DNA from: a virus
Length of the DNA: 45,644 nt
Direction: 5' to 3' (one strand)
Virus record (IMG/VR): IMGVR_UViG_3300031951_000311
Location: 1-45,644 of that record
Below, piece after piece: positions 5,250 through 9,132 of this stretch. Each line of letters begins with the position of its first letter. Positions within the stretch are counted from its first letter, which is position 1. The notes under the pieces were generated by a model that was given only the letters and a program-made list of their open reading frames with translations, was not told the DNA's origin and did no database searches. Made by a program: the position numbers and the translations under genes.

Positions 5250-5410
5250 GTTGGTTCCTTCTTGGCATCCATGAGTTCATCCATTTGCTCTAGCAGCCAT
5301 GTCATCTGCTCGGCGCGATCTTTTCGGCGGGCAATGGGAGTCCATTCGTTGTCAGTGGTCTCGTCGTCACGCAAAGACAGGTACTCGGTCAGTAGGTAGG
5401 AGAACTTCAT
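5246..5410 (-). CDS. 54-aa acidic hypothetical protein
   Basis: MKFSYLLTEYLSLRDDETTD at the start, with a helical C-terminus (DRAEQMTWLLEQMDELMDAK). ATG 5410 has AGGAG six nt upstream, a strong site, and its stop overlaps the next ATG by 4 nt. Its own ATG overlaps the upstream stop in the same way. No domain is recognised; the clean signals make it a confident gene of unknown role. Confidence 0.65.
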   Translation of the reverse strand: MKFSYLLTEYLSLRDDETTDNEWTPIARRKDRAEQMTWLLEQMDELMDAKKEPT

Positions 5411-5907
5411 GGTTTCTCCTTCACATGGGAACGACAAAAGCCGACAGGTACTGTCTTGCTGCATGGCATCAGGTAGCCGCATTGGCAGCGCTCAGGTGCT
5501 GCTGCGAGTGCGCGACTCCATGCCCCCGGGAAACCGTCGTCCCACATCTCAGCGCAGTGCAGCATCTCCGGCGTCGGCTCCACCGGCACCAGCTTGTAGC
5601 CAGCCGGCACATTGGCGGCCAGTGCCTGGGTTGGCTCGGGCTTACACGCCTCCCGGCACCCGTTGGTTTGACAAGCCGGGTAGATGCAGGGATCGGCCTC
5701 CGGGGCTGGTGCTGCGAGTACCTCACGCAATTCGTCAGGCACCCATCCGGCACGATCTTCCGCGTCGCAGGTGTTCACGAGTCGGCGCGCAAGGTAAGCC
5801 GGCACATTGGCAACCTTGCCCTGTGCTAGTGCAAGCGCTTCATCCAAAGTCTTGATCGCACGATCAAGGTAGAACACCGCCGAATCTTTTTGTTGCTCAT
5901 CGCTCAT
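5407..5907 (-). CDS. Modular cysteine-rich hypothetical protein, 166 aa
   Basis: The N-terminal helical segment (VFYLDRAIKTLDEALALAQG) is followed by the ANVPA linker, a cysteine cluster (DPCIYPACQTNGCREACK), a second AANVPAG linker, and GYKLVPVEPTPEMLHCAEMW. The last of these is a module widely seen in phage proteins (xLVPVEPTxEM). The C-terminal CQCGYLMPC may bind metal. ATG 5907 is chosen because it overlaps the upstream stop (ATGA) and follows AGGGTGG. It shares linker DNA with the two neighbouring large genes. Function unknown. Confidence 0.6.
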   Translation of the reverse strand: MSDEQQKDSAVFYLDRAIKTLDEALALAQGKVANVPAYLARRLVNTCDAEDRAGWVPDELREVLAAPAPEADPCIYPACQTNGCREACKPEPTQALAANVPAGYKLVPVEPTPEMLHCAEMWDDGFPGAWSRALAAAPERCQCGYLMPCSKTVPVGFCRSHVKEKP

Positions 5908-6086
5908 ACAACCACCCTGAAAACGCGCACGACAACGACGAGCGCAAGTACGACAAACAGACCGTAGAAAATCCACTCCAACAAGCTCAAGCGACTGGCG
6001 CGCCGTGGCTTGTGCGGGGTCTCCTTCTCGATCCAACCACTGTTCCACTCGCTGTCAGCGTAGTGATCTCGGCGACGGTTGCTCAT
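5904..6086 (-). CDS. 60-aa membrane protein
   Basis: A polar, basic N-terminus (MSNRRRDHYADSEW...HKPRRASR) precedes one long hydrophobic segment (LLEWIFYGLFVVLALVVVVR). This predicts a single inner-membrane pass with the N-terminus in the cytoplasm by the positive-inside rule. The ATG overlaps the upstream stop by 4 nt; only a weak GTGAAG lies upstream, consistent with coupled translation. Function unknown. Confidence 0.6.
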   Translation of the reverse strand: MSNRRRDHYADSEWNSGWIEKETPHKPRRASRLSLLEWIFYGLFVVLALVVVVRVFRVVV

Positions 6087-6223
6087 AGCTTCACCAGCAA
6101 CCCGACAACGCACATTGCACAGCAGACAACCACTGCGCCAATAGCGAACAGCTTCTCGCCACGGGTGGGCACCCACGGCACCTCGGCGTGCCGACCCTGG
6201 TAGTCCAGCCCGGCGTCACTCAT
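6083..6223 (-). CDS. 46-aa membrane peptide
   Basis: Begins MSDAGLDYQGRHAEVP and ends in a hydrophobic segment (LFAIGAVVVCCAMCVVGLLV), so it is a probable single-pass membrane peptide. Its stop overlaps the next ATG by 4 nt, and the pair with the 60-aa membrane protein suggests a two-component membrane function. It lies 8 nt downstream of the Tad2-like gene. Role unknown; superinfection exclusion is one possibility without direct support. Confidence 0.55.
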   Translation of the reverse strand: MSDAGLDYQGRHAEVPWVPTRGEKLFAIGAVVVCCAMCVVGLLVKL

Positions 6224-6231
6224 GCGGCGGT

Positions 6232-6450
6232 TCACAACACCACCTCCCAATCGTCGGACAAGATGATCGAAGTGGCGAGCGGGAAGTTGGAGACACCCTC
6301 GTCGTTGACCAGAATGCCGCCTTCAATGCCGATCCAAGCCCAGCGGGGCCACGACTTGCGCCGCACGCGCAGCCCTCGGCGCATCTCTTGAAGCGCGAGG
6401 CTGAAGTCCATCAAGCCGGTGTCGGCGTTGTATCCGTTGGGTGTGCTCAT
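6232..6450 (-). CDS. DUF2829 / Tad2-like protein, putative anti-Thoeris sponge
   Basis: The 72-aa sequence has the DUF2829 pattern: an N-terminal helix with basic residues (FSLALQEMRRGLRVRRKSWP), a hydrophobic strand (WAWIGIEGG), and the C-terminal LSDDWEVV. The family is known to include Tad2, a phage protein that sequesters the cyclic ADP-ribose signal of Thoeris and so blocks abortive defence. Function here is inferred from family resemblance only. AAGGAG lies eight nt before ATG 6450. The gene has its own promoter candidate (6478-6506) with operator-like repeats, so it may be expressed separately from the Cro-like gene upstream. It is followed by two small membrane proteins. Confidence 0.7.
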   Translation of the reverse strand: MSTPNGYNADTGLMDFSLALQEMRRGLRVRRKSWPRWAWIGIEGGILVNDEGVSNFPLATSIILSDDWEVVL

Positions 6451-6477
6451 CAATTGACTCCTTGTTGCGATGTGCAG

Positions 6478-6506
6478 ACTGTAGCGAGCTTTTAGCGCAC
6501 GCGAAT
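6478..6506 (-). promoter_or_regulatory. Putative leftward promoter of the Tad2-like gene
   Basis: On the minus strand: -10 TACAGT (6483-6478), 17-bp spacer, weak -35 ATTCGC (6506-6501). The predicted start leaves a leader of about 20 nt with AAGGAG before ATG 6450. The spacer and -10 carry TAGC half-sites 11 bp apart (6482 and 6493), closely matching the promoter region at 8995-9023. Confidence 0.45.
6482..6496. promoter_or_regulatory. Putative operator, class A (TAGC direct repeat)
   Basis: TAGCGAGCTTTTAGC: two TAGC half-sites whose starts are 11 bp apart, one helical turn. The same arrangement is at 8999-9013 (TAGCGACCTTTTAGC) and, less conserved, at 6829-6843. It overlaps the promoter spacer, so binding would block transcription. 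Confidence 0.45.
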
Positions 6507-6517
6507 AGGTGCAAACC

Positions 6518-6763
6518 CTAGGTCGGCGAAACGATTTCTTCGAGCGTGAGCTTCGGGATTCGGCCGGTCGTCTTGATGTGCATTTCACGGCTGGCCTTGA
6601 CGAGCGCAGACGCGAGACGGCCACCGGCAGTGCGGTCGCCTGCTGCAAGCTGGTAGAGGTAGCCCCGGCTCGTTCCGGCGAGCTTCGCCATCTCGTGCTG
6701 CTCGGGAACGGTGCAGCAGCGCAGGGCGTGCAGCAAAGGGGTGGCTTGTTTGTCGGTTCGCAT
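6518..6763 (-). CDS. Cro-like HTH regulator, 81 aa
   Basis: Residues 21-42 (EQHEMAKLAGTSRGYLYQLA) form a lambda-repressor-like helix-turn-helix, and the protein is too short for a peptidase domain, as in Cro proteins. It diverges from the CI-like gene at 6870, so the pair forms a lysis-lysogeny switch. It is the first gene of the leftward early transcript. ATG 6763 lies so close to the promoter candidate (-10 at 6771-6776) that the mRNA may be leaderless; no Shine-Dalgarno is seen. Calling it Cro rather than CI rests on size and operon position. Confidence 0.7.
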   Translation of the reverse strand: MRTDKQATPLLHALRCCTVPEQHEMAKLAGTSRGYLYQLAAGDRTAGGRLASALVKASREMHIKTTGRIPKLTLEEIVSPT

Positions 6764-6770
6764 GGGCGCG

Positions 6771-6799
6771 AGTATCGCGATTGCGAAACAAGGTGTCTA
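6771..6799 (-). promoter_or_regulatory. Putative leftward early promoter of the Cro-like gene
   Basis: On the minus strand: -35 TAGACA (6799-6794), 17-bp spacer, -10 GATACT (6776-6771). Transcription would begin within one or two bases of ATG 6763, giving a leaderless message like lambda cI from PRM. The class B dyad 6775-6786 overlaps the -10. Confidence 0.5.
6775..6786. promoter_or_regulatory. Putative operator, class B dyad
   Basis: TCGCGATTGCGA, an inverted repeat TCGC-N4-GCGA overlapping the -10 and spacer of the 6771-6799 promoter. The same pattern is at 2026-2037, with a one-mismatch copy at 9063-9074. Confidence 0.5.
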
Positions 6800-6810
6800 G
6801 AGCGCGACGC

Positions 6811-6839
6811 TTGACAAGCCCTGGAACTTAGCGTACTTA
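6811..6839 (+). promoter_or_regulatory. Putative promoter of the CI-like repressor gene
   Basis: A perfect -35 TTGACA (6811-6816) is followed after 17 bp by TACTTA (6834-6839), a poor -10. The class A half-sites (6829 and 6840) overlap the -10, which fits autoregulation. Confidence 0.45.
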
Positions 6840-6845
6840 TAGCGA
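6828..6845. promoter_or_regulatory. Putative operator, class A (TAGC direct repeat)
   Basis: TTAGCGTACTTATAGCGA contains TAGC at 6829 and at 6840, 11 bp apart, and the hexamer TAGCGA at 6840-6845. TAGCGA also appears at 6482, 8999 and 20829. Confidence 0.45.
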
Positions 6846-6869
6846 ACACCAACCGACCCGGGCAGCAAA

Positions 6870-7316
6870 GTGAGCAAGGTCAGCGACATTCGCAGAGCAA
6901 ACATCCGGCAACTCATCGCCGAGCGCGGTGGGTTGACATCTCTCAGCAACAGCATGGGGTACAAAAACCCGAGCTTCCTGAGCCAGATGACCGGCCCCAG
7001 ACCGAGCCGCGAGATCACGGAGAAGACGGCCCGCAGGATCGAGGAAAAGTTGAGCCTTGCCCCAGGCACCCTCGACCGCCAGAAAAGCGCCTACGCGCCG
7101 ATCCAAGCCACGCCAGCGGCATCGCCTGAGCACGAGGCGGCCGTGGCGATGGTGGCCGACGTGATCCGGTTCGTGGGGAAGGTCTGCGCGGACGAGGGGC
7201 TGAACCTCGGCCCGGCCAAGTTCGCCGAGATCGTCGCGATTGCGTTCGGTGACGCGGCCGAGCGCGGGGAGCCTCGGCGGGAGCACGTCACGCAGCTAGT
7301 GCGGTTGCTGAAGTGA
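6870..7316 (+). CDS. CI-like HTH repressor, 148 aa
   Basis: Residues 10-62 form a lambda-repressor-type HTH (LIAERGGLTSLSNSMGYKN with FLSQMTGPRPSREI), followed by the conserved TEKTARRIEEKLSL helix. The C-terminal 60 residues (AVAMVADVIRFVGKVCADEG onward) are helical and probably oligomerise. There is no LexA/CI peptidase domain, so induction by RecA-driven self-cleavage is unlikely. GTG 6870 is the start, with only a weak ribosome site. It is divergent from the Cro-like gene and the only plus-strand gene between two leftward operons; its stop is 4 bp from the convergent gene at 7321, with no terminator between. Role as maintenance repressor is inferred from position. Confidence 0.75.
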   Translation: MSKVSDIRRANIRQLIAERGGLTSLSNSMGYKNPSFLSQMTGPRPSREITEKTARRIEEKLSLAPGTLDRQKSAYAPIQATPAASPEHEAAVAMVADVIRFVGKVCADEGLNLGPAKFAEIVAIAFGDAAERGEPRREHVTQLVRLLK

Positions 7317-7320
7317 GCGC

Positions 7321-7665
7321 TCAGACCAACCCCTTCGCAGCCCGCCAACCCCACCACGCGGCGTTGAACATCAAGACCCCGTACTCACCGTTGGGCTGCT
7401 TCCAGAACAACGCCTCGGGCGAGCCGTCACCATCGCCTTTCGCCAGCAAGCCCGCGACTTTCATCGTCTGGTAGCGGGCATAAGCCGCTTGCTCGAAGGC
7501 TCGGCGCTCGTTGTACTCGCGGGCTTCTAGCAATTGGGCTGAAGCCGTCGCAGAACGCAGAGGCGCTCCGTCCTCGTGAATCAGGATTCCCTCGGGGTCA
7601 CTGGCGATGTCGCTCGGGTGGCGCGGCGTACCGGTGTAGGGGTTGAACATCACGGTTTTGCTCAT
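7321..7665 (-). CDS. 114-aa hypothetical phage protein
   Basis: Begins MSKTVMFNPYTGTPRHPSDI and includes SDPEGILIHEDGAPL, a combination common in small proteins of phages infecting beta- and gamma-proteobacteria. The C-terminal NGEYGVLMFNAAWWGWRA is aromatic. A helix from about residue 40 to 75 is likely. ATG 7665 overlaps the upstream stop (ATGA). It is the last gene of the 8955-7321 leftward operon and converges on the repressor. Function unknown. Confidence 0.65.
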   Translation of the reverse strand: MSKTVMFNPYTGTPRHPSDIASDPEGILIHEDGAPLRSATASAQLLEAREYNERRAFEQAAYARYQTMKVAGLLAKGDGDGSPEALFWKQPNGEYGVLMFNAAWWGWRAAKGLV

Positions 7666-8000
7666 GCCACACCCCCCTTCCGCGAAGCCCGCAGATCACG
7701 CATGCGCTGGGCCGGCGTCACCGACTGACCGTTGCGCTCAATGTCCACGCCATCGCCCCAGCGGTAGACCGGCGTGAACGGCCGGCCGCGCGAGTCGTTC
7801 GCCCAACCTTCGATGTAGATGTTCGGCGACACCTTGGTCATGCGGCGCATCTGCCGGCGCCAGTGCGCCACGGCACCAGCACCCAGGCCGACAGCCTCGG
7901 CCAATGCCTCGTCGGTGTAGCCACGCTCAGTCAGCAACAGCATCATCTGCGCGACGTGCAGACCGCTACAGCGGCGGCGGGTTTGGATGACGCGGGTCAT
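7662..8000 (-). CDS. Winged HTH DNA-binding protein, 112 aa
   Basis: Residues about 14-50 (HVAQMMLLLTERGYTDEALA, then EAVGLGAGAVAHWRRQM) form a winged-helix HTH. It is followed by a wing-like segment, NIYIEGWANDSRGRPFTPVY, and a basic tail (QRMRDLRASRKGG). This layout (HTH, then xYIxxWxxDxRGRxxxPVYxxG) is a recurrent small family in phages of Burkholderiales. ATG 8000 overlaps the preceding stop. Likely a DNA-binding accessory or regulatory protein; target unknown. Confidence 0.7.
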   Translation of the reverse strand: MTRVIQTRRRCSGLHVAQMMLLLTERGYTDEALAEAVGLGAGAVAHWRRQMRRMTKVSPNIYIEGWANDSRGRPFTPVYRWGDGVDIERNGQSVTPAQRMRDLRASRKGGVA

Positions 8001-8191
8001 GCGACCTCCGGCTGCTCGCCGACAACGAACCGCTGAAGGCGCGCGATGCAATCCTTGTGGTACTGCACCGTGTTGCGCGCCGCGTCTTCCTGTTGCTGGG
8101 CGTCCAGCAGTGCGCGCATGTGGTCGTCGAGGCTCTGCTGGGCGATCACGTGGGCGCTGGGCTTTTCGAGAAGTTTCTTGATGTAGTTCAT
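7997..8191 (-). CDS. 64-aa coiled-coil hypothetical protein
   Basis: Almost entirely helical, with a heptad-like stretch from residue 18 to 54 (QQSLDDHMRALLDAQQQEDA; VQYHKDCIARLQRF). It begins MNYIKKLLEKPSAH at ATG 8191, downstream of an A-rich GAAAG site. Its stop overlaps the next ATG by 4 nt. Nothing indicates a specific function. Confidence 0.6.
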   Translation of the reverse strand: MNYIKKLLEKPSAHVIAQQSLDDHMRALLDAQQQEDAARNTVQYHKDCIARLQRFVVGEQPEVA

Positions 8192-8200
8192 GGTTTTCTT

Positions 8201-8425
8201 TCAGAGTGGGTAGAGTCGTTCAAGGTCTGCAACAGACAGTTCGGCCATCGCCTCGCTCTCGGGCACACCGGCTCGCAACATGCGGTAGTAGTCGCGCCGG
8301 CCGGGATTCGAGTGGTCGCACGCCCCACCCCCGCGCCGATGCGGGAACCAGTACCCGCCGCAGTCGCAGCGGAGCCGGGTGTTGCGCCAGCGTTCGAGGT
8401 GGCGGGGTGTGCGGTAGCGGGTCAT
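8201..8425 (-). CDS. 74-aa zinc-binding hypothetical protein
   Basis: The motif CDCGGYWFPHRRGGGACDHS supplies two cysteines, a histidine and a further Cys/His pair, a likely zinc site found in many small phage proteins. The flanks are basic (RYRTPRHLERWRNTR), and the C-terminus (AMAELSVADLERLYPL) is helical. Its ATG at 8425 overlaps the preceding stop by 4 nt. Probably nucleic-acid binding; no pathway can be assigned. Confidence 0.65.
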   Translation of the reverse strand: MTRYRTPRHLERWRNTRLRCDCGGYWFPHRRGGGACDHSNPGRRDYYRMLRAGVPESEAMAELSVADLERLYPL

Positions 8426-8955
8426 TTCTTCTTCTTGCCCTTCGGCCAGCCCGCCTGCACGAACTCGGCGACCACGTTCGCCAGTACAGGCACCGTGCGG
8501 TCAACGGGTGGCAACGCTTCAGGCAGGTACTTGGCGAACTCGGGCAGCGCTTCGGCGAGTTGCTTGCGGGTGGTGAAGCCGTACGCGGTGGCGCGGATCG
8601 TGGATCGGAGTTTGGCGCGCTTCTCGTCGCTGGCGATGACCGCATCGCACAGAGCATCGACCCGAGCTTGGTCTTTGGGTGACAACTGCAATGCGGCATA
8701 GCGGTTGTCAGCAGGGTAAGCCACGCCGTCGAAGCAGGACTGTCGCTTGTGCCGGAACGAGTGGGTGTTGGTCTGAATCCAAACCCGATCTGCGCTTTCG
8801 ACCCAGAGCTTGCGCACCGCAGCGGGTGTTTTAGCAAGCGCAGCGTCGAGAACGATCTTGTGCGCTTCGATCTGCATGGTCGCCTTGTCGTCTTGCGGAA
8901 CGTCGTTCATCACGGCGCTGACGAATGCGTCGCGGATTTCATTGGTGAGTCTCAC
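8422..8955 (-). CDS. 177-aa protein, possibly Nmad5-like
   Basis: The N-terminus MRLTNEIRDAFVSAVMNDVP, the predicted helical first half, and a short beta segment followed by a C-terminal helical region and basic tail (WPKGKKKK) recall the Nmad5 group (putative nucleotide-modification-associated domain 5). The resemblance is from memory and weak, so the name is tentative. It is the first gene of the leftward 8955-7321 operon, and its promoter candidate (8995-9023) carries the class A operator motif. It faces the replication operon across a 177-bp divergent region. Confidence 0.55.
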   Translation of the reverse strand: MRLTNEIRDAFVSAVMNDVPQDDKATMQIEAHKIVLDAALAKTPAAVRKLWVESADRVWIQTNTHSFRHKRQSCFDGVAYPADNRYAALQLSPKDQARVDALCDAVIASDEKRAKLRSTIRATAYGFTTRKQLAEALPEFAKYLPEALPPVDRTVPVLANVVAEFVQAGWPKGKKKK

Positions 8956-8994
8956 TGGCGTCTTTCAGGTTGCTTGTCGGAAGTGACGGAACGG

Positions 8995-9023
8995 ACTCTA
9001 GCGACCTTTTAGCAAACGAGCAA
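8995..9023 (-). promoter_or_regulatory. Putative leftward promoter of the 8955-7321 operon
   Basis: On the minus strand: -35 TTGCTC (9023-9018), 17-bp spacer, -10 TAGAGT (9000-8995). Leader of about 32 nt to ATG 8955. Class A half-sites fill the spacer and overlap the -10. Confidence 0.5.
8999..9013. promoter_or_regulatory. Putative operator, class A (TAGC direct repeat)
   Basis: TAGCGACCTTTTAGC: TAGC half-sites 11 bp apart, differing from the copy at 6482-6496 at one position. The two are in equivalent positions relative to their promoters. Confidence 0.45.
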
Positions 9024-9062
9024 CCCCCGAGCAAACCCTGATAAAAAACTCGTGTCGTTGTA

Positions 9063-9074
9063 TTGCATTTGCGA
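9063..9074. promoter_or_regulatory. Class B operator candidate at the replication promoter
   Basis: TTGCATTTGCGA differs from TCGC-N4-GCGA at a single position and covers the -35 of the 9063-9091 promoter. The flanking TTGCGACATTAC is identical to the primase-operon site (minus strand, 2034-2023). Confidence 0.45.
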
Positions 9075-9091
9075 CATTACGTGGCTACAGT
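9063..9091 (+). promoter_or_regulatory. Putative rightward early promoter of the replication operon
   Basis: -35 TTGCAT (9063-9068), 17-bp spacer, -10 TACAGT (9086-9091), upstream of a leader with GGAG at 9121-9124 and ATG 9133. The near-perfect class B dyad TTGCATTTGCGA (9063-9074) covers the -35. Confidence 0.55.
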
Positions 9092-9132
9092 GCGCTTCGC
9101 TCAATCACTTTTTCAACCACGGAGCCAATGAC

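Follow-up and report, generated by a model that had tools for sequence, protein, structure and literature searches.

A compact, remotely Tad2-like early protein of a temperate phage that lacks the ligand-binding motifs of Tad2

The phage and its early region

The window analysed here is the whole 45,644-base stretch of the IMG/VR record IMGVR_UViG_3300031951_000311. It encodes an integrase, a CI-like repressor and a Cro-like protein, together with an exonuclease, a single-strand annealing protein, a DNA polymerase and a helicase and, because of the integrase, the two regulators and these replication and recombination genes, the record is that of a temperate phage. Its DNA polymerase is closest (54% identity) to those of the Acidovorax phages ACPWH and ACF1, a kinship from which the host is probably a beta-proteobacterium. 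Searches of genome contigs with the polymerase and with the integrase gave no matches.

The gene of interest lies on the minus strand at 6232..6450 and codes for a compact, probably Tad2-fold protein (PF11195/DUF2829-like) of 72 aa, MSTPNGYNADTGLMDFSLALQEMRRGLRVRRKSWPRWAWIGIEGGILVNDEGVSNFPLATSIILSDDWEVVL, in which a 13-aa N-terminal extension precedes a 58-aa domain. The codon score of this ORF is 0.43 per codon, matching the large genes of the phage (0.42 ± 0.19 for true genes, −0.41 ± 0.36 for wrong frames), and the same frame, read 5′ of the ATG (6450), scores −0.50, that is, as non-coding. Additionally, a Shine-Dalgarno stretch, AACAAGGAGT, is found ahead of this ATG at 6456..6465 (minus strand), with AAGGAG 7 nt 5′ of the start. 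The gene and its start at 6450 are therefore well supported, and the 72-aa ORF that an earlier note on this DNA had placed at exactly 6232-6450 was borne out by codon usage and by the Shine-Dalgarno site. A longer reading of the same frame, 206 aa from a TTG start (6232-6852), was ruled out, its upstream part being non-coding by codon statistics.

Directly upstream of the Tad2-like gene is the gene of the Cro-like helix-turn-helix protein (81 aa, 6518..6763, minus strand), followed by the divergent gene of the CI-like transcriptional repressor (148 aa, 6870..7316, plus strand; phrog_12107). The Tad2-like gene would belong to a leftward early operon adjoining cI/cro. On its other side, two small minus-strand ORFs, each with one predicted transmembrane segment, are found at 6083..6223 (46 aa) and 5904..6086 (60 aa). 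Neither has relatives in phage records or a match in PADLOC or NCBIfam, and their codon scores (0.15 and 0.14, respectively) are between coding and non-coding values. The earlier note described them as two membrane proteins with coupled starts. Both do follow the Tad2-like gene, and the second overlaps the stop of the first (ATGA), but the coupling of the 46-aa ORF to the Tad2-like gene is weak, because it starts after an 8-nt gap and without a good Shine-Dalgarno sequence. The further proposal that these peptides form part of a counter-defence island found no support, as they have no database relatives and a small membrane protein stands beside the Tad2-like gene at only 5 of 53 other distinct Tad2-like loci; one compact relative, L139, follows two small membrane proteins.

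Beyond these ORFs, a 166-aa early-region protein (5407..5907, minus strand), whose start overlaps the preceding stop (ATGA), carries a repeated LAANVPA linker. The corresponding sequence, GCCGGCACATTGGCGGCC (LAANVPA on the minus strand), is present five times between 4187 and 5815 in adjacent leftward early genes that are otherwise dissimilar. This repeat resembles a shared linker and could favour domain shuffling.

Operators and promoters of the immunity region

Three near-identical copies of GCTAWAAGNWCGCTA are found within the immunity region, each covering the −10 of a leftward promoter. The whole window contains exactly two instances of TAGCG-N6-TAGCG (6482 and 6829; 0.04 expected) and a third, near copy at 8999, while the next best operator-like site falls 12 bits below the three. 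Copy 1, GCTAAAAGCTCGCTA (6482..6496, minus strand), covers the spacer and the −10 of the promoter of the Tad2-like gene. Copy 2, GCTATAAGTACGCTA (6829..6843, minus strand), is located in the cI/cro intergenic region, where it additionally covers the −10 region of the promoter that reads rightward into cI, TTGACA(6811)-17-TACTTA. Copy 3, GCTAAAAGGTCGCTA (8999..9013, minus strand), covers the leftward promoter upstream of a 177-aa gene with no function assigned (8422..8955, minus strand). The operator stands in a common register in the three leftward promoters, namely ATTCGC-17-TACAGT ahead of the Tad2-like gene, GTTGGT-17-TAAGTT ahead of cro and TTGCTC-17-TAGAGT ahead of the 177-aa gene, and the sites at the Tad2-like gene and the 177-aa gene (8995-9023) are identical at 18 of 20 positions, most of the −10 included.

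Counting paired pentamer repeats in 6300-9100 without a target gave a result only slightly out of the ordinary (57 of 500 simulations contain one), and the case for an operator is made by two promoter sites that are nearly identical over 20 nt and by the placement of the three copies. When GCTAAAAGNTCGCTANAGT was searched for in IMG/VR, two matches were obtained, which is about chance level, and the same paired motif is absent from the loci of the CI relatives L024-L026. An operator is shared by the cI/cro region and the promoter of the Tad2-like gene, as in an early operon under CI/Cro control, and the layout, as read from the sequence, is that of a lytic-lysogenic switch.

The claim that the Tad2-like gene has its own promoter with a TAGC operator held in part. 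The operator was confirmed and a third copy was added to it, but the promoter is weak, as a fair putative −10 (TACAGT, 4/6; 6478..6483, minus strand) is matched with a poor sequence at the −35 position (ATTCGC, 6501-6506) that is not recognisable as a −35; a consensus promoter scan did not report the 6478-6506 promoter. Because no terminator was found in the 67-nt gap between cro and the Tad2-like gene, read-through from cro is also possible, and transcription may come from either source. As to cro itself, the best consensus promoter near it, TAGACA-17-GATACT (6763-6799), ends 7 nt before its ATG and would give a leaderless cro mRNA.

A regulator that binds the GCTAWAAGNWCGCTA operators would switch the Tad2-like gene. 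From the operator position, we infer that this regulator is most likely CI, which would keep the gene off in the lysogen, so that the protein would be made early after infection or induction; since the operator overlaps the −10, repression in the lysogen is predicted if CI is the binder. Expression in the lysogen, as suggested in the earlier note, runs against this position, over the −10 and shared with cI/cro. The gene could nevertheless be on in the lysogen if only Cro, and not CI, binds the operator, and its product would then be a prophage protection factor. We consider this alternative unlikely, as operators over the −10 of cro and of two other leftward promoters form the layout to be expected if CI represses lytic genes, and as Acb2, another sponge, has been reported to be active during induction and not in lysogenic maintenance (PMC12043709).

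Relationship to the Tad2-like family

Tad2 is a homotetrameric phage protein that sequesters the signal molecule of the bacterial Thoeris system in two pockets between its protomers. The sole Pfam match of the 72-aa protein is to PF11195 (Tad2-like), with E = 4.5e-5 and 24.3 bits, which misses the gathering cut-off of 25, against 81-85 bits for SPO1 Tad2 and further canonical members. PADLOC and NCBIfam searches with the protein gave no match, and its weak matches in PHROGs are to families without known function. A profile built from 78 non-redundant canonical proteins gave 23.6 bits in two pieces split by a large deletion, whereas a profile of nine compact phage proteins gave 32.9 bits across 57 almost ungapped positions, a higher score that is partly by construction, given that the compact set was recruited by a probe resembling the 72-aa protein. 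In 20,000 shuffles the maximum was 15.2 bits for the canonical and 10.9 bits for the compact profile; because the real protein exceeds every shuffle with both profiles, a remote homology to the Tad2-like family is credible. The DUF2829 pattern recognised in the earlier note thus reflects a real family relation, although a remote one that stays below the Pfam cut-off.

With the recruitment caveat in mind, the compact forms appear to be nearer kin of the 72-aa protein than canonical Tad2. Like them, it has a domain of about 55-65 aa without insertion, a F/I-x2-A...G-x2-V-x-R start and a DW-x-hydrophobic end, and it shares with them the length class, the lack of the canonical W-NG (in the forms read) and the nearly ungapped profile match, although identity is only about 30-40%. 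Five compact relatives were found in IMG/VR (L138-L142), including L139 (69 aa) and L140 (60 aa; MSDIGQAVKWMKAKNRVRRRSMPWWILFIDPDGDIVSEEEKYTNSLWSADLLADDWEVYE), and others occur in phage records, such as those of Klebsiella phage KpS110 (60 aa) and Shigella phage KPS64 (63 aa). L142 and the 72-aa protein have in common an N-terminal TGxMDFSLAL stretch; by contrast, L140 and L142 have an acidic residue in S-x-D-LLA-x-DW where the 72-aa protein has I62. The loops of the compact relatives vary strongly, and no conserved pocket is identifiable among them.

Single-sequence patterns revealed no close relatives of the 72-aa protein in IMG/VR, the phage records contained none at E below 2, and none close enough for a selection test was found. 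Additionally, PF11195 is absent from the nearest relatives by polymerase (Acidovorax phages ACPWH and ACF1; L002-L005), from the nearest by CI (L024-L026) and from 13 records (from L024-L045) related through a 537-aa gene; because of these absences, the Tad2-like gene looks like a mobile accessory.

Other arrangements of the domain were also observed. For instance, most canonical Tad2-like domains in IMG/VR (L046-L125) lie within ORFs of 130-180 aa, fused to another domain, and gp55 of SopranoGao (198 aa), which adjoins a regulator pair, likewise has a Tad2-like domain joined to another one. In Lactobacillus phage Iacchus (L129), four places match the compact Tad2-like probe, and the phage gave several hits in the fold search, which suggests an expansion of compact Tad2-fold domains within one genome.

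Predicted fold

Predicted from the single sequence, the model was mediocre (pLDDT 73.9), yet its best PDB matches were to SPO1 Tad2, with low significance. With AlphaFold and 28 relatives, pLDDT rose to 84.0 and pTM was 0.72, values for a monomer prediction whose alignment included canonical Tad2-like rows that may steer the model. This model has a helix (16-24), three strands (28-31, 40-43 and 46-49), a short helix (60-63) and a last strand (67-71). In Foldseek, its top 23 PDB matches are all chains of the Tad2 family (SPO1 Tad2, ModTad2, SptTad2 and HgmTad2/AcrIIA7), with TM 0.59-0.70 and probabilities of 0.89-1.0, the best reaching TM 0.70 at 2.3 Å; the E-values, limited by the shortness of the protein, do not go below 0.02. 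A fold search of BFVD returned Tad2-like domains and phage proteins of 60-63 aa. According to these models, the 72-aa product probably folds like Tad2, and the structural comparison that had been suggested as a check shows a matching core (pLDDT 84; top 23 PDB matches from the Tad2 family).

Missing ligand-binding features

According to a review of sponges, the pockets of Tad2 are lined by the β1-β2, β3-β4 and β4-α3 loops, strand β4 and helix α3, the V-shaped dimer within its tetramer is formed via helix α-2 and strand β-2, and its site for cyclic dinucleotides is an insertion after β-2 (PMC12043709). Pocket residues were assessed here by family conservation and by this list of pocket elements. 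In the β1-β2 loop, the 72-aa protein has W34-P35-R36 and not WNG. The NG after the strand-1 tryptophan is present in 9 of 10 canonical phage-record proteins collected without motif selection, and in 75 of 78 overall, most of which were recruited partly by this very motif. Before the last helix, the β4-α3 loop reads ATSI and not S-x-x-D (ASQTD/PSxxD), whose aspartate is kept in all 10 canonical phage-record proteins. Additionally, the alignment leaves a 24-column gap where the α-2/cyclic-dinucleotide insertion sits, and the AlphaFold model is without α-2, a 2-residue turn joining β-2 to β-3. As two pocket loops are altered at conserved residues and the insertion with α-2 is absent, a Tad2-type pocket is unlikely in the 72-aa protein, to judge from sequence and model.

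Compared with the named Tad2 proteins (SPO1 Gp34.65, ModTad2 and HgmTad2; PF11195), the 72-aa protein is thus likewise the product of a phage gene, with a modelled core that follows theirs (TM about 0.7) and with the same conserved frame, F-x2-AL...G-x2-V-x-R-x2-W at the start and L-x2-DW-x-V at the end. It differs in the length of the domain (58 aa against roughly 80-100 aa) and in lacking the WNG loop, S-x-x-D, α-2 and the cyclic-dinucleotide insertion. AcrIIA7/HgmTad2, which has the fold in common by structure search, differs in being 104 aa long and in keeping WNG and ASQTD; its ligands, by PDB titles, are cADPR and cGG.

It might be argued that the protein is Tad2 proper and, through a diverged pocket, still sequesters gcADPR or His-ADPR to counter Thoeris. 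The common fold and the retained frame would agree with this, as would the plasticity of specificity within the family, where the ADPR signal bound by SPO1 Tad2 is not that bound by ModTad2 (PMC13299392). By contrast, the N and G of WNG and the S and D of S-x-x-D, near-universal in canonical relatives, are replaced, helix α-2, which in the tetramer contributes to the V-shaped dimer, is missing (PMC12043709) and the Pfam score is under the family cut-off, all of which makes this explanation quite improbable. The sequestration of Thoeris signals put forward in the earlier note is consequently not supported, WNG and S-x-x-D being replaced and the insertion missing; half of what that note had named as refuting the claim is thereby observed, namely the mismatch at the Tad2 pocket residues. 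Because the parts of Tad2 that hold the signal are missing, the label “Thoeris inhibitor” is not justified for the 72-aa protein.

Possible functions of the compact protein

The reading that we favour, with moderate confidence, is that the temperate phage makes, early on, a compact protein of Tad2 fold, most likely repressed by CI in the lysogen, whose function differs from that of Tad2. The product would keep the Tad2 core (helix, β hairpins, short helix and last strand), while two motifs of the pocket lining would be gone, as would the insertion that makes up α-2 and the cyclic-dinucleotide site; because of these losses, it most likely no longer acts as a Tad2-type sponge for gcADPR, His-ADPR or cyclic dinucleotides. 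With regard to its biochemical role, we infer that, as a small factor, it most likely serves host takeover or counter-defence by binding either another ligand or a protein partner.

Two more specific explanations deserve attention. In one of them, which we can offer only tentatively, the protein would be a sponge for another nucleotide-type signal, with an unchanged fold and a new ligand. Solved proteins of the Tad2 fold are mostly ligand sponges, early operons are typical for accessory host-interaction genes and compact relatives are found across many unrelated phages, but the compact forms, with their highly variable loops, have no identifiable conserved pocket. In the other, the Tad2 fold is only a scaffold for protein-protein binding, as in an inhibitor of CRISPR or restriction or in a host-takeover factor. 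That the fold persists although the pocket motifs are gone is consistent with such a non-sponge role, and there is an apparent precedent in AcrIIA7 (PDB 8kbi and 9kzr), a Tad2-fold protein filed as a type II CRISPR-Cas inhibitor. This precedent is, however, ambiguous, as the protein is also in the PDB as HgmTad2 with bound signals, so that the fold bears two functional labels. This second explanation is accordingly one that we also regard as possible and no stronger than tentative.

Significance for the Tad2-like family

We consider the 72-aa protein to be a divergent compact member of the family and to belong with the numerous small phage early proteins of Tad2 shape. A broader and rather doubtful idea is that compact, insertion-free Tad2-fold early proteins constitute a widespread family that sequesters an unknown signal or directly blocks a defence protein; if this were true, the Tad2-like gene would point to an undescribed defence pathway.

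Annotation pipelines call such short proteins “Thoeris anti-defense 2-like”. The Tad2 fold can, however, occur without the ligand-binding signatures, and scoring such genes as anti-Thoeris would overestimate the counter-defence of phages against Thoeris. If the compact forms have a ligand or partner of their own, they would be common and easily tested candidate counter-defence genes.
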